Shown in pieces: positions 9,081-25,397 of a stretch of DNA of 25,397 nt; position 1 is the first letter of the stretch; each line of letters begins with the position of its first letter. The notes under the pieces were generated by a model. The model was not told the origin of the DNA and did no database searches. It worked only from the letters and a program-made list of their open reading frames with translations. The translations under genes and the position numbers were made by a program. Source of the DNA: a virus; IMG/VR virus record IMGVR_UViG_3300025671_000471, positions 1 through 25,397 of that record; one strand, 5' to 3'.

Positions 9081-9565
9081 TTAAACTAGGAAAATTGAAA
9101 TTAACAAGTTTGTTTAAGCAAGTTACCTCAGAATCTAAGCAAGTTAAGGCTTACCATATTGCTCGTGAGCACTTTGGGTTAAGAGAGATCCGTGGTAATG
9201 GTCATGAGCCGAAGATTCTGGAGTTCTTTAATGCTGTAGGACACTCTTGGGTAAAAGACGACGAGACTGCTTGGTGCGCAGCTTTTGTCGGAGCTTGTCT
9301 TGAAGCAGCAGGTATTGTTAGTTCCCGCCGGTTGAACGCTCGTTCCTACCTAGAGTGGGGTGACCCTGTGTCCTCACCTAAAGAAGGTGATATTGTAGTA
9401 TTCTGGCGAGGCTCCCCAAAAGCTGCCACAGGACATGTCGCATTTTTCGTCAAGCATAATGACAATGGTGATTTTATTGTTCTAGGCGGAAATCAGTCCG
9501 ATATGGTAAACGAGCAGGTCTACGCTAAAGAACGTGTTCTTAGCATTCGTCGTTATCCAGAATAA
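9077..9565 (+). CDS. Endolysin, cysteine peptidase/amidase (TIGR02594-like)
   Basis: The product has 162 residues with a TIGR02594/CHAP-like layout: AWCAAFVGACLEAAG with catalytic Cys67, ARSYLEWG (88-95), PKEGDIVVFWRG (101-112), GHVAFFV with His120, and VLGGNQSD, whose Asn139 is the likely third residue. Family members cut peptide bonds in peptidoglycan. There is no obvious signal peptide, in line with release through the holin encoded just before it. The start is the ATGA overlap with the holin. The stop codon at 9563-9565 touches the first T7-like promoter element, so this gene closes the preceding transcription unit. Confidence 0.85.
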   Translation: MIKLGKLKLTSLFKQVTSESKQVKAYHIAREHFGLREIRGNGHEPKILEFFNAVGHSWVKDDETAWCAAFVGACLEAAGIVSSRRLNARSYLEWGDPVSSPKEGDIVVFWRGSPKAATGHVAFFVKHNDNGDFIVLGGNQSDMVNEQVYAKERVLSIRRYPE

Positions 9566-9582
9566 ATACGACGTACTAATGA
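9564..9582 (+). promoter_or_regulatory. T7-like phage promoter P1 (copy 1 of 19-base repeat)
   Basis: AAATACGACGTACTAATGA overlaps the endolysin stop. Aligned without gaps to the T7 promoter TAATACGACTCACTATAG, it matches at -16 to -9, -6 to -3 and the G at +1; it differs at -17, -8, -7, -2 and -1. The predicted start is G9581. An identical copy lies 120 bp downstream, and a T7-type polymerase gene is present in the same window. Use by that polymerase is inferred. Confidence 0.8.
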
Positions 9583-9683: not shown

Positions 9684-9702
9684 AAATACGACGTACTAAT
9701 GA
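9684..9702 (+). promoter_or_regulatory. T7-like phage promoter P2 (copy 2 of 19-base repeat)
   Basis: This is identical over 19 bases to P1 and exactly 120 bp downstream. The predicted start is G9701 followed by AGGGG, a purine-rich start like those favoured by T7-type polymerases. It lies just after the terminator and is the nearest promoter-like element to the portal, MuF-polymerase and capsid genes, so it may drive the head operon and the polymerase itself. Confidence 0.8.
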
Positions 9703-9815: not shown

Positions 9816-11387
9816 ATGGCTAAACTACGTAAGCCTTCTAAAGCTGTAAAAAGGTCCGTTTCAGATCCTTCTGATTCTTATCACAGCCTGAAACCCCTGT
9901 GGAAAAAATCCCGATCAGTGCTCAACGGGGACGCACATACTAAAGCTCACGATGAATTTCTCGATGTTTATAATTACAGTAACCTGCTAATTCCTTTTTC
10001 TCCTTCTATGACTCAGCAACAGTATGAGTTCTATAAGTCAGAATCAGAACTACCGGGCCTAACAGCTCAGTACTGCAAGGTGTTGATTAGCGCACTTCTA
10101 CGTAAGAAGTCATTACTTACACTTCCTGATGGTCTTCCAGAAGATGCCCTCGATTGGATCGAGAAAGATTTTACAAGTGATGGTCAGTCATTGTTTAACT
10201 TCCTCGACAGTGCTATCTGGGAAGAACTTCAAACTTCCCGTGCTTGGGTTTATGTAGATTATCCCACGTTCTCCGATGAAGAGTTAGAAGGGATGTCTAC
10301 AGAGGAGCGTATGTCTATCTCCCCTTATCCTGTATTACTAAAAGCAGAGAACGTCATTAATACACAGATTAAAGTACATCCAGTGACTAAACAGCGTACT
10401 CTGACCCGTTTCGTTACGAGGTATATTGCTGAAAACTACTCTAAGGAAAACCCTTGGCATCCTGATTATGTAGATACTGTTGCTGACCACTACTTAGATG
10501 AGGCTGGGCGTTTAGTTATTGACTACTACCAGAAGAAAGATCTCACTGGTGAAGTAGAAGTAGTTAATGGTGATGTAACCCAAGACTACAAAGACATGCA
10601 GGTAACCGAAGCTGGCTTCGAGAAGTTTAATACGGTATATCCAACCATGTTTGGTGAACGTGTATGGCGTATCCCTGCGTGGCCCCTAAATGGTCAACTA
10701 GAACCTGTAGAGCCTGTACTAATGCCTCTTATTGATAGAGAAGTGGCGCTATATAACAAGGTATCACGTCGTAACCATCTCCTTTATGGTGCTGCGACTT
10801 ATACTCCAGTGGTACAGTCTGATATGTCAGATGAAGAATTTGAGGAGCTAGTTAATGCTGGTCTCGGCACTTGGCTACGTGTTCGTAAAGACGAATCAAT
10901 TTCTGTTCTTGAAACGCCAACAAGTGCTCTAGCTGACATGGATCGAGCAATCCAAACTACTGTTGAAGAGATGGCTAGAATGGGGATCCGTATGCTTTCA
11001 CCCGAACAAGCAGCCTCTGGTGTCGCTCTAGAGATTCGTAATGCTTCCCAGACAGCACAGCTAGGTGCTCTTAATGCTAAGATCTCTTCTACTATGGAAG
11101 AAGTTATTGCTTTTATGCTTAACTGGAAGTATGATTCTGACTTTGGCGGTAATGATGTTAAGTTCCAACTAAGCTCTGACTTCTCTGCTCTTGTTGGTGG
11201 TGAAGGGGCAATGCGTCTCGTCTCAGAATGGTACCAAAGTGGTATTATTTCTCGTGAGACCTTTATTTCTATTGCGAAATATAACGACTTCTTGCCAATG
11301 AACTATGATGATGAGGCGGCGATTCAAGCTATCCAAACTGATCCTATCATCAATCAGACTCCTGACGACAACGTTCAAGTGGAGTAA
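9816..11387 (+). CDS. Portal protein (DUF4055-like)
   Basis: The product has 523 residues. ATG 9816 follows GAAAGG at a good distance. The sequence has the shape of DUF4055 portal proteins: an N-terminal segment leading to ELPGLTAQYCKVLISALLRKK (about 78-98), an aspartate-rich wing, the ELQTSRAWVYVDYP segment (about 137-150), a central PLIDREVALYNKVSRRNHLLYGAATYTPV block (about 305-333) and a C-terminal EQAASGVALEIRNASQTAQLG helix (about 397-417). The portal is the dodecameric ring through which DNA is packaged and ejected and on which MuF-type proteins dock. It is the first gene after P2 and is followed after 62 bases by the MuF-polymerase gene. No terminase gene is seen in the window. Confidence 0.85.
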   Translation: MAKLRKPSKAVKRSVSDPSDSYHSLKPLWKKSRSVLNGDAHTKAHDEFLDVYNYSNLLIPFSPSMTQQQYEFYKSESELPGLTAQYCKVLISALLRKKSLLTLPDGLPEDALDWIEKDFTSDGQSLFNFLDSAIWEELQTSRAWVYVDYPTFSDEELEGMSTEERMSISPYPVLLKAENVINTQIKVHPVTKQRTLTRFVTRYIAENYSKENPWHPDYVDTVADHYLDEAGRLVIDYYQKKDLTGEVEVVNGDVTQDYKDMQVTEAGFEKFNTVYPTMFGERVWRIPAWPLNGQLEPVEPVLMPLIDREVALYNKVSRRNHLLYGAATYTPVVQSDMSDEEFEELVNAGLGTWLRVRKDESISVLETPTSALADMDRAIQTTVEEMARMGIRMLSPEQAASGVALEIRNASQTAQLGALNAKISSTMEEVIAFMLNWKYDSDFGGNDVKFQLSSDFSALVGGEGAMRLVSEWYQSGIISRETFISIAKYNDFLPMNYDDEAAIQAIQTDPIINQTPDDNVQVE

Positions 11388-11449: not shown

Positions 11450-14400
11450 ATGGCTAACGTTAACGATAAAATCTTTGACCGTATTGTAGAGCATATGTCA
11501 GATGTAAGACTCTATGAAGAAGGCCAACAAATCCTACAGCGACGTATTATTAGACGCCACCGTGAGAATTTGACAAAACTTCTGAAGAAGGATATAAGGT
11601 CTGATGTTACACGGGAAGTAAATCGCTTCGCTAAAGAATTAAATAGCTCCACTACTAATAGTATTAAGGAGTTCTCAACTTCCCAGATTGATTTCCATAC
11701 GGACAATCTATACCGTGAAGTTAAAGATTTCTATAAAATGAGGAAGCCTACTACAAAAGAGCTTCTATCAGAGATTACTGGTACCGGAATGAGGGGTGAG
11801 AAATCCCTTTCAGGTAATGTCAGGAATATTGCTTCTGGGGAACTTATACGAATCCAGTCAAGGGTAAGGTCTGGTTTGGCTTATAATAAGTCACCAAAAG
11901 AGATTATTGCTGATGTCATGAAAACGACTAAGCTGACAGAACATCAGGCGTCTACACTGACAAGAACAGCTATTACGTCTACTCAAACAGCAGCACTTAA
12001 TAAGGTTGTTCAAGAGAACAAAGACGTAATCAAGGGTTATATGTTTACGGCAATCTTGGACTCCCGTACAAGCCCTATCTGCTCACACCACAATGGTAAA
12101 ATCTATGATGTAGATGACAATCGCTTTATGCCACCTCTGCATTGGAACTGTCGTTCAAGTTTAGTACCTGTTCTAAAGAGCAAGGAAGAGCTGGCGAATA
12201 CAGGAAATGATAACATTTCTGTATTTGGTGAACAGCATACACTGAAGAACGTTGGTCTTGTAGAACGCAGAGTTGAAAAGTTTAATCCCTCTGTGGTATA
12301 CCATGAATTCTATGAAGATCCTGAGACTATCGCTTGGGCTAAGAAAAACAACTTTATTCTGAGGAAGGGCGACCTTAGCTATGCTGAGAAGGATGCTCTT
12401 GTTAAGAAGTATGGCGGTGCTACGGAACAATTTCACCGTGACCGTGAAGCTTTCATGTATAACCAGATGAAGAATGCTGACAAAAATGTTCGTACTGCTT
12501 TTATAATGGGTAACGACCATGCTTTCGATTCAGGTTCTGTTATCTTTAAAGATAAGTCCTTCCGTAAGGTAGATTATCGTGGTAAGGTGTTTGAAGCATC
12601 TACTCGTATTCAGAAGTCTAAACTGGAGAAGATAGCAGACACTTACTTTAATGGGCTATCTGCTAAGATTCAGACTTTCACTGAGTGGCTTCGTAAACAA
12701 GACTTCGACACTATGGTGAAGATGCTAGGTAGTGAAGAACGTGCTAAACTATTTAAAGGTGGTGCACTTGAAGCTCGTGAGTTTATAACACCAAAAGGGA
12801 CTGTCCTATCTATCCAAGCCCTTCGTGCTCGGGCGAGTAAGATAACTTCTGTGTTTCGACCCCGTCAGGTTGTTAAGGATACTAACCTCCGTGTTGAAGC
12901 CCGTAATCCAAACTCTCTGCTCAACAACCCTAAACATCAATCTGATCTAGAACAACTCTTTATTTCAGATGCAGATGACTACAACTCAGCCTTTGCTCTT
13001 ACAGATTTCAAAGGTACTAGTCTTGTAGGTAAACAAGCATCCCGTAGACGAATGAGTAATCAGTTCGATGAACGCAACTTCATTACTGATACCTTTACTG
13101 GTGAGGTTCGGAGCAATCTAACTTACGAGCCGGACTTCAACCTGTTTCAAGAACGACTAGACTTTATGAAGTCTGCTAAAGACTTGACAAGTGAGCAGAA
13201 GGATTTTATTGAGGGTCTAGCTATTAAGCTGACTGACAAAGTGTCAGTAAATCAGCAAATTGTAGCTGTTGAGAATCTTCGTGTCACTTTCCAGCGATAT
13301 AATAGCAGTAAGGAGCCTTGGTCTGATCTTGCCTCCGTAATCCGAGCGGAAAATAGGTTCTCTGTTCAGAACGTATCACGTCTGCTAGATGTTCGTGCAA
13401 GGAAACGTGCAGAGTTGTTCGGTGGGTTTGTGTCTACAGGTGATAAACCTAAGATGCAGATTATGGGTAAGTACTATAATGTAGAAGACCTAGTCAACGA
13501 TCAGCTATCAAACCAGCGTTTTATCGACAACTGGCGAGCTACAGAAGGTACTAAGCTAGCTAAGAAGGTTTACTACAGAGGTCGTGCCCCCATCAATGCG
13601 TATACTCAGGCTATCATTCGTAGGTATCCGGATAAGGAAAAGCTCATTGATAAGATGCTAGATAACGTCATACCGTTCCGTAAACAGTATAAGGCATACC
13701 TTAAGTGGAAAAATAAACCGCCTTCTGATGACTGGATTACTAGGCAAATTGCCAAGTTCCGTGAAGGTGTTCGTCAGATCTATGACTTAGAGTGGCTCTA
13801 TGCTAAACAGCGTCCGACTTCTAAGCTTATGGACGACAAGGTTCTTCATACCACTACAAAGGCTCTTAAGCTTGTAGCCTCTGGTCGTGCTACAGATTAT
13901 GACTCCCTAGCTATCAATATTGGTAAGATGTATCATCAGGATCTGGGGGATTTAAATCCACTTGCTACGTATACCTTAAAGGATTACCACAAAGAAGGAT
14001 CTAAGATTCTAGAGTTTATGCGTGAGCAAAACCTAATCAGGGTTAGTTTCCGTGGTAAGACTCGTAGAGGTGTGTGGGATGTTGATACAGGTCGAGCGTC
14101 AGGTGGTTGGGCTGATACGATTACTCGGGAAGTTCAGGTAATTGATAAAACTCTTCTCAAGCTGCAAGAAGCAGAATTGAAGGCTACTTATGCTCGCCGT
14201 TTTGGTGTCGTATATGACAGAGATCGGCTTTATGTAAAAGCAGGTAATAAAGAGTTCTTTGACGCTAGAGGTAACAAAACAGGTATTCCTATTATCTCTG
14301 CGGATAAGTACCCTGACTATGATCCTAACCAGATCGATGCTGAAATGGCAAAGATGATGAATCATGTTACTAGCGTGAACTACCGCGTTGATGACGAGTT

Positions 14401-16225
14401 CTTCGATTTTATGGATGACGTTGTACGATTCCGTGACCCCCGTGGTAACACGAAGTACTATGATGAGCTTAATGAGTTCCGTCATGAAATTATCAATCGC
14501 GGTGAAGCTGGTTACGGTTTAATGGCTACTGCTAAGTATCATCGCCAAAGAGGTAAATCCTTCAAGACTGATGTGTTTATTGACTCCCGTGGTCGTGTGT
14601 ACCATCGTGGTTATCTTACACCTACAGGTGGCGAAATGGTTCGTCCATTCCTGAACTCTGATAAAGCTGTAGCTATACAGATGGCTGATGTTAATGAACT
14701 CCGTATCCAGCTTGGGGCGATGATTGGTCCCGGTACTGAGGCACTAACTCAAAGTGGTCGTCTTGATATCTTTAAGCGCAACGAGTCTAAGATTCTTGAG
14801 CTTGCTGGTTTGCTACAAGCTAAGACACAACGTGATCGCCGTATCCGTGAGTTTCTTGAGCACCCTTTGATTAAGGGTCTTGAAGGTAAAGAAGTTCCAA
14901 AGATGGCTCGTTTTGCTTTAGAGTATAAGCGTATTCATGACCATGTAGGTGGTAACTTCTCTAATACTGCACTATTGAAAACTTATAAAACCCGTTTGAT
15001 GATCGAGAATGACGCCTCTTCTAGTGGTGCTCAAATTATCGGTCTATCCACGGGCGATAGGGCCATTGCAGAGGCTTCAAACGTCGTTGCTACAACCCGT
15101 AAGAATCGTCTTTATGACCTTGTTGCTCAGGACACAGTTAATGACCCAGAGTTCCTAAAGATTCCTGCTCTACGTAATGCAGGCTTGACTTGGGAAGACT
15201 TAGCTAAAGGTGCGAAAGCGCAGAACATGGTGACATTCTACGGTGCTGGGGAAGCCACAAAGACCGCAAACATCGCTAATAAACTCTCAGGTATTCTTGA
15301 GAAGAAGGGCTATGCTACAATTACTAAAGATAACGTCAATGAAATACTTCGTATCGTTGACGGTAAAATCAAGACAGCCGATAAACTCGGTGCTAACGCT
15401 ACAGTCGATTCACTAAAGAGCTTCCGAAGTGAACTGATTGAAATGGTAAATGGAAATACCCCGGTTGGACGTAACTTACTAACTATGGCGAGAGACCTTC
15501 ACCCGGATGTAGAAGACTTCGTTCTGAAGGTTTCAAACTCTCGTGTTGGGCTTGTAGGGCCGAAAGACTTCGAAGAAATTTCAAGGATTATGTCTAAGCA
15601 CCTCTCTCAACGTGCTCCTGTTACTGACGAATTCATTAACTTCTGGAAATCAGCAGCTAAAGTATACGTTAAGGAGACCGAGAAGGTGGATATCCCTTGG
15701 GTGACGTTTGATGGTAAAGTCATGATGCAAAGATATCGTGGCAAGAGTCAAACTCGCATTGACTTTACAGACCCAGTTACTGGGCGTAAAATTGCAAACA
15801 TCTATGAAGGTACTGTTGAGGATGGTTTACTGCGCGGTAAACACGCTTTCCAAGATGCTTCTATCGGCCTAGGTGTTAACGGAAACCACAGCAATGACGC
15901 TGTGATCGTGCGCAGGTTCCATCTTTGGGGGAGAGATAACGGAGTGGATACTGGAACCATCCATGACGCTTTTTTCACCAATCTAGCTGACGCACAAAAA
16001 GCTAAAGACGCCTTGAGAACCATCTATGCAGATGCTCTTGAAGGTGACACAATCAGGAAGACTCTCTACGCATGGCGTAAAGAAGGCCTAACTAAATCAG
16101 CGTATGACGCTCTCATTGCTGATGCAAAGAAACGTGGTCTTATTGACCCACCAAACAAACTAACCCGTGCTGATATCCTTGCCCCTATTAAGGAAGGATA
16201 CGATTGGTATGGGATTGGTCCTTGA
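11450..16225 (+). CDS. MuF-type minor head protein fused to a T7-type RNA polymerase
   Basis: The product has 1591 residues in one uninterrupted frame. The N-terminal part is a MuF/SPP1 gp7-like head protein: helices RVRSGLAYNKSPKEIIADV and LTRTAITSTQTAALNKVV, then ILDSRTSPICSHHNGKIY (Cys211, His213) and PPLHWNCRSSL (His231, Cys234). A second minor-head segment, FTEWLRKQ..MLGSEERAKLFKGG, lies near 408-435. The C-terminal 700 residues follow T7 RNA polymerase: DSRGRVYHRGY (Asp1045; Arg1049), ENDASSSGAQ (catalytic Asp1188, motif A), AKAQNMVTFYG (Lys1256 and Tyr1264 with T7 spacing, motif B), PWVTFDGKVMMQRY and SQTRIDF (specificity-loop region), NHSND (His1480) and TIHDAF (His1505-Asp1506, motif C). 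The middle, about 460-860, is unassigned. A polymerase on a capsid protein next to the portal suggests packaging and delivery with the DNA. Start ATG 11450 follows GGGAG. Confidence 0.9.
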   Translation: MANVNDKIFDRIVEHMSDVRLYEEGQQILQRRIIRRHRENLTKLLKKDIRSDVTREVNRFAKELNSSTTNSIKEFSTSQIDFHTDNLYREVKDFYKMRKPTTKELLSEITGTGMRGEKSLSGNVRNIASGELIRIQSRVRSGLAYNKSPKEIIADVMKTTKLTEHQASTLTRTAITSTQTAALNKVVQENKDVIKGYMFTAILDSRTSPICSHHNGKIYDVDDNRFMPPLHWNCRSSLVPVLKSKEELANTGNDNISVFGEQHTLKNVGLVERRVEKFNPSVVYHEFYEDPETIAWAKKNNFILRKGDLSYAEKDALVKKYGGATEQFHRDREAFMYNQMKNADKNVRTAFIMGNDHAFDSGSVIFKDKSFRKVDYRGKVFEASTRIQKSKLEKIADTYFNGLSAKIQTFTEWLRKQDFDTMVKMLGSEERAKLFKGGALEAREFITPKGTVLSIQALRARASKITSVFRPRQVVKDTNLRVEARNPNSLLNNPKHQSDLEQLFISDADDYNSAFALTDFKGTSLVGKQASRRRMSNQFDERNFITDTFTGEVRSNLTYEPDFNLFQERLDFMKSAKDLTSEQKDFIEGLAIKLTDKVSVNQQIVAVENLRVTFQRYNSSKEPWSDLASVIRAENRFSVQNVSRLLDVRARKRAELFGGFVSTGDKPKMQIMGKYYNVEDLVNDQLSNQRFIDNWRATEGTKLAKKVYYRGRAPINAYTQAIIRRYPDKEKLIDKMLDNVIPFRKQYKAYLKWKNKPPSDDWITRQIAKFREGVRQIYDLEWLYAKQRPTSKLMDDKVLHTTTKALKLVASGRATDYDSLAINIGKMYHQDLGDLNPLATYTLKDYHKEGSKILEFMREQNLIRVSFRGKTRRGVWDVDTGRASGGWADTITREVQVIDKTLLKLQEAELKATYARRFGVVYDRDRLYVKAGNKEFFDARGNKTGIPIISADKYPDYDPNQIDAEMAKMMNHVTSVNYRVDDEFFDFMDDVVRFRDPRGNTKYYDELNEFRHEIINRGEAGYGLMATAKYHRQRGKSFKTDVFIDSRGRVYHRGYLTPTGGEMVRPFLNSDKAVAIQMADVNELRIQLGAMIGPGTEALTQSGRLDIFKRNESKILELAGLLQAKTQRDRRIREFLEHPLIKGLEGKEVPKMARFALEYKRIHDHVGGNFSNTALLKTYKTRLMIENDASSSGAQIIGLSTGDRAIAEASNVVATTRKNRLYDLVAQDTVNDPEFLKIPALRNAGLTWEDLAKGAKAQNMVTFYGAGEATKTANIANKLSGILEKKGYATITKDNVNEILRIVDGKIKTADKLGANATVDSLKSFRSELIEMVNGNTPVGRNLLTMARDLHPDVEDFVLKVSNSRVGLVGPKDFEEISRIMSKHLSQRAPVTDEFINFWKSAAKVYVKETEKVDIPWVTFDGKVMMQRYRGKSQTRIDFTDPVTGRKIANIYEGTVEDGLLRGKHAFQDASIGLGVNGNHSNDAVIVRRFHLWGRDNGVDTGTIHDAFFTNLADAQKAKDALRTIYADALEGDTIRKTLYAWRKEGLTKSAYDALIADAKKRGLIDPPNKLTRADILAPIKEGYDWYGIGP

Positions 16226-16318: not shown

Positions 16319-16996
16319 ATGAGTGAGAATCTAGAAAATCAAGTCGAAGAAACCACTGAAGCCACTGAAGCTGAAGCACCCGAAGCTGAACAAACAGAAG
16401 AAACAGCTAAGGCAAAGCCAGCAGATGACATTGAAGCTATCGTTGAAGAACGTCTAGCTAAGATGAAGGCTAACATGGACCGCATGGTAAAGGAGCGTGA
16501 TGAGGCTTTAAAGGCTAAAGCAGAGATCGAAAAGGCTAAGAAAGACGCTGAGATTGCCCGTATGAAAGAAGAAGGCAAGCTGCAAGAAGCCCTTGAGATG
16601 GAACTAGCAGAAGCTAAGGCTAAACTCGAACTATACCAGAAGGACATCACTTCTCTGCGCCGCGATGGTGCTGTGAATGATGCTCTTGCAGGACTTGAAT
16701 TCCGCAATGAGAAATCCCGTGAGATGGCTCGTCGTGAGATCACTGATGACCTAATTCAAGATGAGCAAGGTATGTGGGTACACAAATCAGGCGCATCAAT
16801 TAAAGACTTCATTGTTTCTTACTCAAAGAATGAAGACAATTCATTCCTGTTCAAAGTTAAATCTAACTCTGGTGCAGGTACTGGCACCCCTGCAGGTGCA
16901 CCCACAACCGATGTAAAGAAATCCATCGGTGAAATGTCAACTCAGGAAATTCTAGCACTTGCCGCTAAGGGTAAGCTAGGTAATTTTGGTTACTAA
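16319..16996 (+). CDS. Capsid scaffolding protein
   Basis: The product has 225 residues, very rich in Glu, Ala and Lys. It has an acidic N-terminal tail (about 1-40), a long coiled-coil region (about 42-115) with repeated KAKAEIEKAKKDAEIARMKE-type heptads, a conserved-looking segment RRDGAVNDALAGLEFRN..REMARREI (about 118-143), and a Gly/Ala/Pro-rich linker before a short helical C-terminus. This is the usual form of phage head scaffolding proteins (DUF4355/gp6-like), which guide capsid assembly and leave or are cleaved. Its position directly before the major capsid gene supports this. AAGGA precedes ATG by eight bases. No protease motif is visible. Confidence 0.82.
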   Translation: MSENLENQVEETTEATEAEAPEAEQTEETAKAKPADDIEAIVEERLAKMKANMDRMVKERDEALKAKAEIEKAKKDAEIARMKEEGKLQEALEMELAEAKAKLELYQKDITSLRRDGAVNDALAGLEFRNEKSREMARREITDDLIQDEQGMWVHKSGASIKDFIVSYSKNEDNSFLFKVKSNSGAGTGTPAGAPTTDVKKSIGEMSTQEILALAAKGKLGNFGY

Positions 16997-17023: not shown

Positions 17024-18142
17024 ATGGCTATTACAAATACTGACTTTCAGAATATCTCTCTAGCTATCTCTGCTTATGCAGATGAGGCTTACACCAATGC
17101 AAAGAAGCTAAATGGTACAGGTATCGTTGCTGCTGACCAGAAAATTGATGTTTCTGGCGAAAACTTCTACGGCCAGTTCCGCTGGTACAAGCCACTATCA
17201 GCAACCGTTAACGTTGCCTCACTATCAAGTGCCACTGACGGCACCTACACCTCAATCACCACCGACTACGCGAACTTCATCAAGACCGTTCGTACCTTCG
17301 GTGCCGAGCAGGTAAACATGCAGGAAGTCGTATCAAAGCAGGACGGTCTCGCAAAGATCGCTCGTGACTTTGCTGAAGTCCGTGCACAGGACGAGCATGA
17401 TGCGCTTCTCTCCGTTCTAAAAGGTGTTTCACACTACGAAGTCGCTCTAGGCGATGCCGGTGGTGTTGGTAATGGTGGTGTTATTGACTTCGATACTGAT
17501 ACAGACGCTTCTGCGACTGGTTTCTTCGTTGATGTGAACGCACTTGGTCTACACGGTGCAGCTGCTACCGGTTCTGGCGACGAGCGTAAGCTTTTCGACT
17601 CAAGCGCAATCGGTGCTGCTCGTGGTGAGCGCCTATTCCGTTCAATCGGTGCTGCCTTCAAGGACTACGAGCCTGACTACATGTACCTCGTAACCTCACC
17701 TGAAGTTATGGCAGAAATGCGGGCTGCTAACCTTGTTGACCAGTCAAAGGTCACCGATGGCAACCTAGAATTCTCAACCATTTTCGATGGTAAGTTCCGT
17801 CTAGTGATGACCCGTGCAAACCAGATGATTGCTGGTGCCGCTTCTGGCGACCTAAACGCTCGCTCTACAAAGTGTACCTTCGTTATCAAGCCCGGTTCAG
17901 TCGCAAACGCGATGATCGGCCTTCCAACCCCCGTTGAAGTAGATCGTAGTGCTGCTTCTTACACTGGTGGTGGTTCAACCAACGTATGGTATCGCTGGGG
18001 CTACGCAATGCACCCAATGGGCTATGACTGGGCTGGTTCACAGACAGCCTTCGCAACCAACACCACTCTAGGTACTGGTGCTTCATGGGCTCGTAAGATG
18101 GACAGCCTTAACTTTGGTATCCTACCAATCTTCCACGCCTAA
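17024..18142 (+). CDS. Major capsid protein
   Basis: The product has 372 residues, between scaffold and head-tail connector genes. It shows an N-terminal helix (ISLAISAYADEAYTNAKKLNG), an extended loop with FYGQFRWYKPL, then FIKTVRTFGAEQVNMQEVVSKQDGLAKIARDFAEVRAQDEHDALLSVLKG (about 85-134), the spine-helix-like part, and a beta-rich C-terminal half with YMYLVTSPEVMAEMR and FRLVMTRANQM. The layout fits HK97-fold capsid proteins of siphoviruses. Third positions favour C (TTC, TAC, GAC, AAC) far more than in neighbouring genes, and a sampled line has 52% GC, as expected for the most heavily translated gene. AAGGA lies eight bases before ATG. Confidence 0.85.
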   Translation: MAITNTDFQNISLAISAYADEAYTNAKKLNGTGIVAADQKIDVSGENFYGQFRWYKPLSATVNVASLSSATDGTYTSITTDYANFIKTVRTFGAEQVNMQEVVSKQDGLAKIARDFAEVRAQDEHDALLSVLKGVSHYEVALGDAGGVGNGGVIDFDTDTDASATGFFVDVNALGLHGAAATGSGDERKLFDSSAIGAARGERLFRSIGAAFKDYEPDYMYLVTSPEVMAEMRAANLVDQSKVTDGNLEFSTIFDGKFRLVMTRANQMIAGAASGDLNARSTKCTFVIKPGSVANAMIGLPTPVEVDRSAASYTGGGSTNVWYRWGYAMHPMGYDWAGSQTAFATNTTLGTGASWARKMDSLNFGILPIFHA

Positions 18143-21278: not shown

Positions 21279-24200
21279 ATGCAAAAAGGTGTTGAAATCC
21301 GGGTACGTGCAGACACGTCCCAAGCAAAGAAACAAATCAAGAGCCTAGAACAATCTGTTGCTGGGCTTGAATCGACTGCCAGTAAGGTTGCAGGGGCTTT
21401 TAAGGCACTAGCTGTTACTATCACAGGTTTGCAAATTGGTAAGAAACTATCAGGAGCATCTGACACCTTACTAGAGATGGAGAACCGTCTAGCCCTTGTT
21501 GTTGGTCGGGGTAAGGAACTCTCTTCTACTCTTGAGCGGATGTACAGGGTGGCAGAGAGGACGCGACAGCCTGTAAAAGTTGTAACTGATACTTTTAACA
21601 GGTTAGGTCTTGCACTAGATGGTACGGGCAGAAGCACAAAGCAACTACTAATTGCAACAGAAGCTATCCAACAAGCGGCTCAAATCTCTGGTGCATCCGC
21701 AACTACTGCTGAACAAGCTATCATCCAGCTTGGTCAGGGCCTAGCTTCAGGCCAACTACGTGGCGAAGAACTCAACTCGGTACTTGAAGGTATGCCACGA
21801 CTTGCGCGAGCTATCGCCGAAGGTATGGGCGTTCCCTTTGGGAAACTAAGGGAGCTTGCAAAGGACGGAAAGCTAGAGGCTGAAACTATCTTCGAGGCTA
21901 TCCTCTCTCAGTCTGAAAAACTTGCATTTGAGTTCTCTACTCTTGAAGCCACTACACGTAGTTTAGCAATTGTATTTGGTGGGGAGTTCACCAGAGCACT
22001 AAGTATTCTAGACAAAGAGCTAGGCTTTGGTAAGAATATGAGGGAACAACTCTTTATAGGTATTGAGGCCCTAAAGGTATTTAACGCTAACTTCTCTATT
22101 TGGGTTTCACTACTCAAGGCGAATATTACATTAGCTCTAAATGATCTTACCTTCTTTAAACTCCGTATGCGTGAGATTTTAGCTAGTATCTTTACTAAAG
22201 AAGGTATTAATACAGAAGCATTTGTAGACGAGCTTTTTGTTAACCCGTTTAATTCCGTAAAGGCTAAAATCGAAGAAGTATGGTCTGGTATTAACCTACC
22301 ATCACTAGATCTTGCTTCAAAGATCCCCACATTTGAGTCTATTAGCTCAAATCTGATTAGTCTTAAAGACGGTGTTATCGGTGTATTCAAGGAGATCTGG
22401 GACAGGATTACAGGGCAATCTCTTTGGACTGGTATCTTTGATCCTGCTCACATGGAACCCGGCCAAACCCTCGCTGTCGGCTCCTCTCTAACTAAATACT
22501 TCGAAACACCTCTTAGAAATCTAGAGACTTTCAAGAATAGCATCATCGCTAAATTTAAAGAGATCAATAAAGACGCAACCGTGGCTTGGGAGAAGATTTG
22601 GACCGGGCTAACAACAAAAACTATCTCGACAGAGACAGGCCCAGAGGCCGTTGATACTGCCTTCGGACGTAGCATTGATTTAGCTAGTGATCAGCTAGAA
22701 CGCGCCAAGAACGAACTTAAGAAAGTCTATGAGGATATTCTTACCGACACCATCGAGACACCCCGTGGTCCAAGGGTCGTTGATTCAGCTCTAGTAAAAA
22801 CGCTAAAGGACATTCGTGACTACAGTGGGCAAATATCCGAAACGACACTATCAGGTCTTGCCGCTGCAATTAATGCCTTAGCTAATGCACCTGCTATCAA
22901 ACTAGGTACTATCCTACTATCATCAGCCTTCACTAAAACTAAAGAAAGTATTCTAAGTTTCGGCGCAGATATAGAAGAGTTCAAAACTAGTATCTCTAAT
23001 TGGTTTAAGGAAAACGAAGCTGCGATCAGTGCATCTATCTCAATCGCCTTAGCTGCTGCTATTAAGTTTGGTGCTAAGAAGACCCTAATTGTCGGGGCGA
23101 TCCTCGGGCTATTTAGCTTTAACGCGGATGAGGTTTTAAATGATGAAGAGCTACAAGCTTCCTTAGAAAACCTAGGCGCTGGTTATGTGCAACTACTTAA
23201 AAGCGTATTCACTACTGACCCCGGAAGTACTCTCATGGAAGGTCTTAAAGATACCCTAGCAGCTTTTGGCAGAGGTATTAATAAAGAGATCTTTGGCGAA
23301 AACTTCACAACAGACACTCAAGATGCACTCGCTGGGGCGATCGGAGCAATTACGGTTGCTGCTGTCCTGACTACTGGTGCGCGGGAAGCTCTAAAAGCTC
23401 TAGGTGTAGCGATTGCAGCGGCAATTATGGGTACAACCATAGCTACAGAGCTTGCAGCTGGCTTGGCAATCGGTTTGAATTCTATGAAGATGTCTCCGAA
23501 TTCTGTACTAGCGATAGCGGCAGGAAATGTTGGTATCGCCCTTGGTAAGTTAATAGGGCAGTCGGTAGGGGCAGCAGCAACAGGTTTAGCTGTAGGGGTT
23601 GCTGTCGATATTATTGTACCTGATGAAGCATTCAATGGCCTCGGTGGAGCACTTGATAACGTAATCGGGGGCGCGGCCTTTGGTGCCCAACTAGGTTCCG
23701 CATTTGGACCTTATGGGGTAGCTGGAGGGGCGATCGCAGGTGGGCTAGCTGGTGCTATTTATGCGGCTGTAACAGACCCTAAAGTTGCTTCTGGTTTTAA
23801 GGAGATCTTCAGGGGACTAAGAGAATCCCTATACACGTTGCTTAACACAGTAGGCGTTGTATCCGATAAGACTCTTATAGAGACTCGTATCTCTGATAAA
23901 GCGGCAGATATCACAGTCCTAGAGTCGCAAATCACTCAAGCTCAACAGGAAGGTTCTGGTGCTGGACCTGTAGAAATCGCTAAGCTGAAGAATGCTAGGT
24001 TTGATCTAGAGAAGGAATTATTCCTGCTTAGTGAGAACCTAAAAGAGATTAATAATGCTGAGTCTTTCGCACTCGCTGAAAAGGCCGCTGAAAAACAAAA
24101 AGCAGCTGATGATTTTATTGATCGTTTTATAGCGGGGTCTAAGAAACTTGTTGAAGGGATAGAAACACAGGACGAAGCACTCCTTGCAATTTTTGAAATC

Positions 24201-25397
24201 CAAAACGATATTAACAGTATTCTCCGACAGGTGGAAAGTGGCACAAGGACACTAGATGCACAACAAATAGACTTTATTAGATCTCTAAAAGAGTTAACTG
24301 ATGGAGTTAAAAGCCAAACTGACAAATTGGCTGTACTAGGCCAACTCACAAGCAGACTTAATGATGGTGTTAATCCTACTGAAAAATTCACTGCGAGCGT
24401 TACTGCCAGAGCCTCCGGTGGCTATATATCAGGACCCGGTGGCCCCACTGACGACCTGATCCCAGCGATGCTTTCCAATGGTGAGTATGTTATTAAGGCT
24501 TCTTCTGTCAAAAAGTTCGGGTCAGGTTTCCTTGACAAGATCAACAGTGGGATAATGCCACAATTCTTTTCCCCAGGTGGTCTAGTATCCCCCTATGATG
24601 AGAGTATTAAGCAACTGAAGCGTGACTTGAGGGGGTTGGAGGATCTAGGGGCTACCGAAAGAGTTGCCGCTACAATCGCTCAGATTTCTGCACTAGAATC
24701 TGCCCGTGCAAACTGGTTAGCGCAACAAGATACTGATGTGGAGCTTGAAGACCCTTCTGCTGGGACAGTCAGTGATGGAAAATCTAAAAAATCTGGAAAG
24801 ACTGCCGCAGAGAGCTTCTATGAAAACTTCAAGAGCGGGTTTAGTAGTAGCCTATCACAGTTCCTAAAGGATGGTGATCTGAAGGGATTTATCACTGGAA
24901 TTCTAGACAGCTTCACCAGTAACATCATAGACTCCTTCGTTGATGGATTCACCAAGAGCCTCTTTGGGGAGGGTAAACTCCTAAAAGATCTTTTCTCCAA
25001 GACAGCTTCTTTTGGTGAGAGCATAGCAAAGACAGCAACAAGCGGGAGTTCACAAGGTGTGCAGGGGGGTATGCAAGGTTTCTTATCCTTTCTCCTAGGT
25101 TCCGGTGGACAAGGTGGGCTATTCAGTTCAATCTTTGGCATGTCCTTCGGGTCTTGGCTTGGCTTCTCCTCTGGTGGTATCGTGCCAATGACACCTTATG
25201 CACAAGCTGGTAAGGACTCAGTTCCCGCTATGCTAACACCGGGCGAGATGGTTGTACCTGCAAATCAGATTAACAAGTTTATGAATGGATCTACTGCCAC
25301 ACAGCAGCAGGTTTATAACCTCAACATCACAGGCGATATCTCCCGGCAGACCCGTGCCGAGATTGTTAAGATGATCCCTCAAATCACTACAGGTGTT
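21279..25397 (+). CDS. Tape measure protein (partial, runs off the window)
   Basis: ATG 21279 follows GGAGG; the frame is open for 1373 codons to the window edge, so the C-terminus is missing. Residues 1-230 match the tape measure N-terminal domain (TIGR02675-like): a coiled start, LEMENRLALVVGRGKEL, RTRQPVKVVTDTFNRLGLAL, QAIIQLGQGLASGQLRGEELNSVLEGMPRLARAIA. Gly/Ala-rich hydrophobic stretches near 585-610 and 685-830 could cross the host membrane during DNA entry. A coiled coil covers about 870-1000. Two copies of a SGG..(P)...D..PAMLSNGEYVI/LTPGEMVVP motif lie near 1045-1085 and 1297-1335, common in tape measure C-termini. The protein sets tail length and is ejected ahead of the genome. At the usual 0.15 nm per residue the tail would exceed 200 nm. 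Confidence 0.93.
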   Translation, partial: MQKGVEIRVRADTSQAKKQIKSLEQSVAGLESTASKVAGAFKALAVTITGLQIGKKLSGASDTLLEMENRLALVVGRGKELSSTLERMYRVAERTRQPVKVVTDTFNRLGLALDGTGRSTKQLLIATEAIQQAAQISGASATTAEQAIIQLGQGLASGQLRGEELNSVLEGMPRLARAIAEGMGVPFGKLRELAKDGKLEAETIFEAILSQSEKLAFEFSTLEATTRSLAIVFGGEFTRALSILDKELGFGKNMREQLFIGIEALKVFNANFSIWVSLLKANITLALNDLTFFKLRMREILASIFTKEGINTEAFVDELFVNPFNSVKAKIEEVWSGINLPSLDLASKIPTFESISSNLISLKDGVIGVFKEIWDRITGQSLWTGIFDPAHMEPGQTLAVGSSLTKYFETPLRNLETFKNSIIAKFKEINKDATVAWEKIWTGLTTKTISTETGPEAVDTAFGRSIDLASDQLERAKNELKKVYEDILTDTIETPRGPRVVDSALVKTLKDIRDYSGQISETTLSGLAAAINALANAPAIKLGTILLSSAFTKTKESILSFGADIEEFKTSISNWFKENEAAISASISIALAAAIKFGAKKTLIVGAILGLFSFNADEVLNDEELQASLENLGAGYVQLLKSVFTTDPGSTLMEGLKDTLAAFGRGINKEIFGENFTTDTQDALAGAIGAITVAAVLTTGAREALKALGVAIAAAIMGTTIATELAAGLAIGLNSMKMSPNSVLAIAAGNVGIALGKLIGQSVGAAATGLAVGVAVDIIVPDEAFNGLGGALDNVIGGAAFGAQLGSAFGPYGVAGGAIAGGLAGAIYAAVTDPKVASGFKEIFRGLRESLYTLLNTVGVVSDKTLIETRISDKAADITVLESQITQAQQEGSGAGPVEIAKLKNARFDLEKELFLLSENLKEINNAESFALAEKAAEKQKAADDFIDRFIAGSKKLVEGIETQDEALLAIFEIQNDINSILRQVESGTRTLDAQQIDFIRSLKELTDGVKSQTDKLAVLGQLTSRLNDGVNPTEKFTASVTARASGGYISGPGGPTDDLIPAMLSNGEYVIKASSVKKFGSGFLDKINSGIMPQFFSPGGLVSPYDESIKQLKRDLRGLEDLGATERVAATIAQISALESARANWLAQQDTDVELEDPSAGTVSDGKSKKSGKTAAESFYENFKSGFSSSLSQFLKDGDLKGFITGILDSFTSNIIDSFVDGFTKSLFGEGKLLKDLFSKTASFGESIAKTATSGSSQGVQGGMQGFLSFLLGSGGQGGLFSSIFGMSFGSWLGFSSGGIVPMTPYAQAGKDSVPAMLTPGEMVVPANQINKFMNGSTATQQQVYNLNITGDISRQTRAEIVKMIPQITTGV

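Follow-up and report, generated by a model that had tools for sequence, protein, structure and literature searches.

What might a phage gain by joining a head protein to an RNA polymerase in a single polypeptide? The question is raised by one open reading frame in the stretch of viral DNA analyzed here (IMG/VR record IMGVR_UViG_3300025671_000471, positions 1 to 25,397; the whole 25,397-nucleotide stretch is called the window), and it depends on whether both parts of the chain are what they seem, in which phages the chain occurs, and which promoters it could read. A sequence-only reading of this DNA had placed a MuF domain at the N-terminus of the predicted protein, here called MuF-RNAP, and a single-subunit RNA polymerase at its C-terminus. 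Family searches bear out the first assignment, as residues 135-238 match Phage_Mu_F in Pfam (PF04233, E 9.3e-16) with 59 bits against a curated cut-off of 29.6, and the protein matches phrog_241 (head morphogenesis, E 1.2e-47) in PHROGs. The second is upheld by a match of residues 1177-1548 to RNA_pol (PF00940, E 9.4e-8; 31.7 bits against a curated cut-off of 22) together with the T7-like predicted fold described below; phrog_414 (RNA polymerase, E 6.8e-26) was also matched, as was T7 RNA polymerase (RNAP) over residues 1391-1557 in a phmmer search of the PDB.

Within the MuF domain, Cys211, Gly216, Tyr219, Pro228, Pro229, His231, Cys234, Arg235 and Ser236 are invariant in 71 of 71 relatives. 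The predicted structure of this part gave helical-bundle matches only when compared with the PDB; none of the solved structures matched was a portal-bound protein, and nothing was convincing. The insertion of about 130 residues that follows the domain (Table 1) is common to the window protein and one relative (L071) and is missing from the other relatives aligned. Neither this insertion nor the helical middle region has a Pfam match. In fold, the insertion weakly resembles structures of the ChaN and methyltransferase kinds (Z 7-8), which is not enough to name it.

Table 1. Positions of the fusion gene, its parts and neighboring features in the window
Feature	Position	Strand	Basis or remark
Candidate late promoter, copy 1, AAATACGACGTACTAATGA	9564..9582	+	Upstream of portal/MuF-RNAP operon
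Candidate late promoter, copy 2, AAATACGACGTACTAATGA	9684..9702	+	Upstream of portal/MuF-RNAP operon
Portal protein gene, directly upstream of MuF-RNAP	9816..11387	+	phrog_145, E 6.4e-46
MuF-RNAP fusion gene	11450..16225	+	ATG to stop, 1591 aa
MuF (SPP1 gp7-like) domain, residues 135-238; CSHHNGKIY...HWNC motif	11852..12163	+	PF04233, phrog_241
Insertion of ~130 residues, residues ~258-390	12221..12619	+	Alignments
Conserved helical middle region, residues 392-675	12623..13474	+	No family match; purifying selection
Single-subunit RNAP domain, residues ~676-1591 (~916 residues)	13475..16222	+	AlphaFold2 model compared with T7 RNAP; PF00940
DSRGRVY, residues 1045-1051 (T7 D421-x3-R425)	14582..14602	+	Alignment
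Motif A, Asp1188 (T7 D537)	15011..15013	+	Alignment, conservation
Motif B, Lys1256-x7-Tyr1264	15215..15241	+	Spacing, conservation; group I introns frequent here in relatives
His1480 (T7 H784)	15887..15889	+	Alignment, conservation
Motif C, His1505-Asp1506 (T7 H811-D812)	15962..15967	+	Alignment, conservation
Head scaffolding protein	16319..16996	+	phrog_206, E 8.9e-13
Major head protein	17024..18142	+	phrog_247, E 8e-26
Tail length tape measure protein, cut by the window edge	21279..25397	+	Siphovirus

Residues 392-1591 were modeled with AlphaFold2 from 55 relatives (mean pLDDT 79, pTM 0.70). The best Foldseek match of the model is T7 RNAP (E 3e-18), and model residues 284-1198 align with T7 RNAP 33-883 at Z 28-31, a structural alignment from which the limits of the polymerase domain in Table 1 were taken. 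With VIA-align, Z was 31.0 for T7 RNAP entry 8dh5_M (rmsd 4.6, 555 residues aligned) and 28.6 for 1s77_D (rmsd 3.4, 531 aligned), and several further T7 RNAP entries lie at an rmsd of 3.2-3.8. Mitochondrial RNAPs scored Z 27 and lower, the N4 mini-vRNAP 17.4 and N4 RNAPII 15.0; in the comparison with T7 and N4 polymerases proposed in the sequence-only reading, the fit to N4 is thus poorer than that to T7. All of the catalytic residues listed there (D1188, K1256, Y1264, H1480, H1505 and D1506) are found at the positions given. In a profile/MAFFT alignment D1045, R1049, D1188, H1480, H1505 and D1506 fall on T7 D421, R425, D537, H784, H811 and D812, respectively. Motif B reads K-x3-M-x3-Y-G and is spaced as T7 K631-Y639, as had been claimed; an indel precedes this motif, the automatic alignment does not place K1256 and Y1264 on the T7 residues, and their assignment is by motif spacing only. 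Loss of the catalytic residues across homologues had been named as a sign against a polymerase. Among 72-87 relatives, D1188, K1256, H1480, H1505 and D1506 proved invariant and Y1264 was kept in 84 of 87, the exceptions probably being frames broken at an intron. Judged by sequence and model, the C-terminal part is a complete T7-type RNAP, and RNA synthesis is predicted for it. It has in common with T7 RNAP the fold, the DxxxR element, motifs A, B and C and the Tyr for rNTP choice. T7 RNAP is a stand-alone enzyme made after entry by the host RNAP and is not a virion protein, unlike what we propose for MuF-RNAP.

Relatives of the fusion gene and a second polymerase

Among 50,697 phage records, the full architecture occurs only in DSS3_VP1/DSS3_PM1 and EBPR siphovirus 1. 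Relatives are far more numerous in IMG/VR, where one probe found 357 loci and a second one at least 538; the two sets may overlap. No relatives were found when bacterial and archaeal genome contigs were searched with the polymerase alignment, and the window itself had no megablast match among phage records. The long-tailed phages that carry MuF-RNAP form a large group, most members of which are uncultured. DSS3_VP1, reportedly described by Rihtman et al. in 2021, and DSS3_PM1 (both Naomviridae) encode a full-length homologue (QGH74596) that is 59% identical to the window protein and also placed after the portal gene, but is without the insertion of about 130 residues; its record names it "minor head protein-like protein" and leaves the polymerase part unnamed. 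DSS3_VP1 is a roseophage with dU-substituted DNA (PMC12697855). In EBPR siphovirus 1 the gene, about 29% identical at the protein level, corresponds to gp47 plus gp49, which were annotated apart ("head protein" and "hypothetical") because it is interrupted in motif B by an element that resembles a group I intron and carries an HNH endonuclease gene; the match of this site to the group I intron family (Rfam RF00028) is sub-threshold.

MuF and RNAP form one chain in every full-length frame of the relatives that we read. In nearly all of 15 pairs dN/dS is 0.03-0.13 for the MuF, middle and RNAP parts (one value is 0.22), with dS near saturation in many of the pairs. Group I introns (RF00028) interrupt the gene in several relatives, most of them in motif B, others in motif A (L178, following DASS) and in motif C (L081, following IHD). 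Mobile introns favor the most conserved sites of essential genes, and introns in the polymerase motifs therefore lend support to an active enzyme. Introns within the gene were located at 7635-7858 in L081, 3376-4775 in L178, 3157-3476 and 5039-5259 in L010, and 820-1380 in L155; some of the genes contain two or three, and some are accompanied by HNH genes. Three relatives (L148, L150 and L151) have a protein of 1778 aa with an insertion of about 218 residues between motif B and the equivalent of His784.

The window is a siphovirus late module. Its gene order is portal, MuF-RNAP, scaffold, capsid, head-tail adaptor, tail terminator, major tail and tape measure; genes for the tail tip and for lysis come before these, and the context agrees with the siphovirus named in the sequence-only reading. 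The fusion gene thus sits between the portal and the scaffold/capsid genes, as a MuF gene does, and the head operon is homologous to and syntenic with that of the Naomviridae, the order of portal, MuF-RNAP, scaffold, capsid and tail genes being common to both. A PhoH-like gene and a weak sulfotransferase-like match (1465-2025 and 614-1201) lie near tail fibre genes in the window. A MuF gene was found in 28 of 32 contigs, each time in the fusion or its intron-split form and never more than once per contig; in three of the other four the RNAP part is cut at the contig end, and one, a 54-kb fragment, is entirely without MuF-RNAP.

A separate, stand-alone T7-like RNAP, termed RNAP2, is present in DSS3_VP1, in all 10 EBPR-type contigs of at least 61 kb and in 21 of 21 long contigs selected by promoter motif alone. 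It has about 730-790 aa, apart from a few cases in which it is longer or split. Within the 25-kb window a second RNAP is absent; the early region and RNAP2 of this phage lie outside the window. We saw no sign that RNAP2 had recently been copied into the MuF gene, as the MuF-RNAP family profile scores T7 RNAP at 31.6 bits and RNAP2 at 10.5 at most; the N4 mini-vRNAP was not reported by this profile. In three contigs (G017, G018 and G048; loci L137, L147 and L253) the RNAP2 frames are 926-1022 aa long, with inserts between conserved blocks that are possibly inteins.

A promoter-like motif before the early region

Just after the tape-measure gene of DSS3_VP1, a 29-bp sequence is exactly repeated at 35793 and 36240. 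The Naomviridae-type motif is GAGAAA-N6-GCATCTATAATGA, and the EBPR type, GCGGAA-N6-GTATCTTATATGA, has the same spacing. The core GAGAAA-N6-GCATCTATAATGAT, scanned across 2.9 million viral contigs, returned 49 stretches. Naomviridae-type proteins are encoded on 48 of them, and the remaining stretch comes from a further part of a MuF-RNAP contig. The sites lie upstream of RNAP2 in 42 of 42 cases (stretches with RNAP2) and after the tape measure in 66 of 66 (stretches with that gene), always on the same strand. For the EBPR type, 20 of 21 long contigs selected by the motif alone encode MuF-RNAP and 21 of 21 a PF00940 RNAP, and in 9 of 10 long contigs selected by MuF-RNAP it precedes RNAP2 and is on the RNAP2 strand. 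A close relative of the window (L010) carries the early motif, differing at 1-2 positions, downstream of the tape-measure gene. Additional copies occur elsewhere in three contigs (G014, G015 and G022), and one 72-kb contig with both RNAPs (G016) has no copy within 2 mismatches. The reversed pattern gave no matches. The early motif is found essentially only in MuF-RNAP phages.

An A-tract upstream of the Naomviridae-type motif is conserved beyond the probe. A stem of at least 6 bp follows 53 of 59 distinct Naomviridae-type sites, compared to about 3% of shuffles, but just 29 of 100 EBPR-type sites; an N4-type promoter hairpin was therefore rejected as a general feature, being missing from most sites of the EBPR type. 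The Naomviridae type contains a perfect TATAAT, whereas the EBPR type lacks it yet keeps the flanks. The motif has no -35 element, its spacer is fully conserved, and a sigma-70 scan of DSS3_VP1 did not call the early motif sites. By elimination, MuF-RNAP, and not RNAP2 or the host enzyme, would be the polymerase that reads this motif.

Proposed role and alternatives to it

It is probable, in our judgment, that MuF-RNAP is a virion-packaged phage polymerase that is injected and reads early promoters leading to RNAP2, which then makes the late operon. We infer packaging and injection from several independent lines: the gene is part of the late operon for portal, MuF, scaffold and capsid, each contig examined has at most one MuF gene and this is always the fusion, a further, stand-alone RNAP is encoded in every long contig, and a dedicated promoter-like motif family precedes the early region. 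A polymerase made together with head proteins would have to be packaged to be of use when infection begins. Late in infection, RNAP2 would transcribe the portal/MuF-RNAP/capsid operon, and the MuF domain may bind the portal and bring a few copies of the chain into the procapsid. Upon infection the chain would leave the head with the DNA, and its polymerase domain would read the early promoters of either type, so that the transcripts cover early genes including RNAP2. RNAP2 would in turn read other promoters and express the late genes, among them the virion polymerase for the next infection. That a large siphovirus group runs such a closed relay without host RNAP at the start, from portal-anchored, injected MuF-RNAP to RNAP2 and on to the next MuF-RNAP, seems to us about evenly balanced between true and false. 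If true, the relay would also mean that members with dU-DNA need not rely on the host to recognize promoters that lack thymine.

An active polymerase might instead remain undelivered, working late in the producing cell or at the portal during packaging, with the host sigma-70 RNAP transcribing the early genes. The location of the gene in the late operon fits this, and the TATAAT of the Naomviridae-type motif, which the host RNAP could read, argues against a virion polymerase. However, a separate RNAP2 is already at hand for the late genes, it is not evident what an enzyme confined to the cell that makes it would need a MuF anchor for, and neither the missing -35 element and fully conserved spacer nor the EBPR-type motif, with its flanks retained in the absence of TATAAT, is what this alternative leads one to expect; we regard it as unlikely. 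Injection could also serve mainly to pull DNA into the cell by transcribing its entering end, early expression being secondary. Such a motor is compatible with a portal-anchored polymerase, and the N4 virion RNAP (vRNAP) takes part in injecting the genome (PMC4496689). In the linear DSS3_VP1 record, however, the early motif lies in the middle and not at an end, although which end enters is uncertain if the genomes are permuted, and a motor as the main function appears very unlikely. Cleavage of the chain during head assembly would be in keeping with the frequent processing of phage head proteins by proteases; the MuF half alone would then enter the virion, and the purpose of the fusion would be co-expression or targeting to where heads assemble. 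It is nevertheless highly improbable, as no full-length relative has given up the fusion, for which two separate genes could substitute, and the middle region shows conservation and purifying selection. Fusion by chance is excluded, and a degenerate fusion without polymerase function, to which the weak PF00940 sequence match might point, is hardly credible in view of the invariant catalytic residues, T7 fold, purifying selection and introns in active-site motifs.

The best reading is that MuF-RNAP works like the N4 virion RNAP, with a different architecture. The N4 enzyme (gp50, Schitoviridae) is likewise a T7-superfamily RNAP within a larger chain; N4 packages this chain of about 3500 residues via its C-terminal part (PMC5512222, PMC12633501), and the ejected vRNAP transcribes early genes from which the polymerase that acts next is made (PMC4496689, PMC12633501). 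Here the chain is less than half as long, the polymerase itself is C-terminal and an N-terminal MuF domain precedes it, so the contrast with the N4 route drawn in the sequence-only reading holds. N4 encodes further RNAPs in its early region, and the relatives likewise have an additional phage RNAP. N4 is a podovirus with hairpin promoters, whereas the MuF-RNAP phages are siphoviruses in which any hairpin follows the motif. The long-tailed phage P23-45 has a virion RNAP fused to its tape measure and a second, non-virion RNAP (PMC10770324). Its gp96 is likewise a fusion of an RNAP to a virion structural protein, but that RNAP is a two-barrel enzyme homologous to cellular RNAPs and is carried by a tail protein, compared to a single-subunit RNAP on a head protein here. 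As for the MuF part, the portal brings SPP1 gp7 into the procapsid, and delivery has been proposed for MuF proteins with C-terminal toxins (PMC6316719). These MuF-effector fusions (MuF toxins and polyvalent proteins) also pair an N-terminal MuF domain with a C-terminal enzyme for which packaging or delivery is proposed (PMC5512222, PMC6316719), but their cargo is an RNase, RelA/SpoT, 2H phosphoesterase or similar and not an RNAP. A survey of polyvalent proteins found virion N4-like RNAP modules only in N4-like phages (PMC5512222).

The sequence-only reading knew of no such fusion as a characterized system, and we likewise found no description of one in the open-access literature searched. The large family, the two named phage carriers, the second RNAP and the two classes of promoter-like motif go beyond that reading. 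If our proposal is correct, MuF-RNAP would be a further architecture for a virion RNAP, after the N4-type, phiKZ/crAss-type and tape-measure-fused enzymes, and the first to use a MuF protein as far as the open-access literature shows; it would also extend MuF fusions from proposed effectors to the transcription of the phage itself. The fusion most likely allows the phage to bring its own polymerase into the cell and to begin expressing its genes independently of the host enzyme. This phage group is abundant in metagenomes, and a specific promoter-like motif together with cultured DSS3_VP1 and its roseobacter host offers a testbed for the packaging and delivery of virion polymerases.

Candidate late promoters

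In DSS3_VP1, the motif TAGGGTACGTTAAAGAGGGG, more generally TAGGGT(A/G)CGTTAAAGAGGGG, occurs in about 14 copies between 2243 and 73994 (L002/L003), all on the + strand, and three of the TAGGGTACGTTAAAGAGGGG copies lie just upstream of the portal/MuF-RNAP operon. It is likely a phage-specific promoter class that is unannotated in the record. This motif was mostly absent from the other members in which it was sought, and late promoters therefore differ between phages. In the window, AAATACGACGTACTAATGA has two perfect copies, with 0.02 expected, and these repeats are candidate RNAP2 promoters. The window repeat (AAATACGAC...) starts like the T7 promoter (TAATACGAC...), and a possible hairpin follows each copy.
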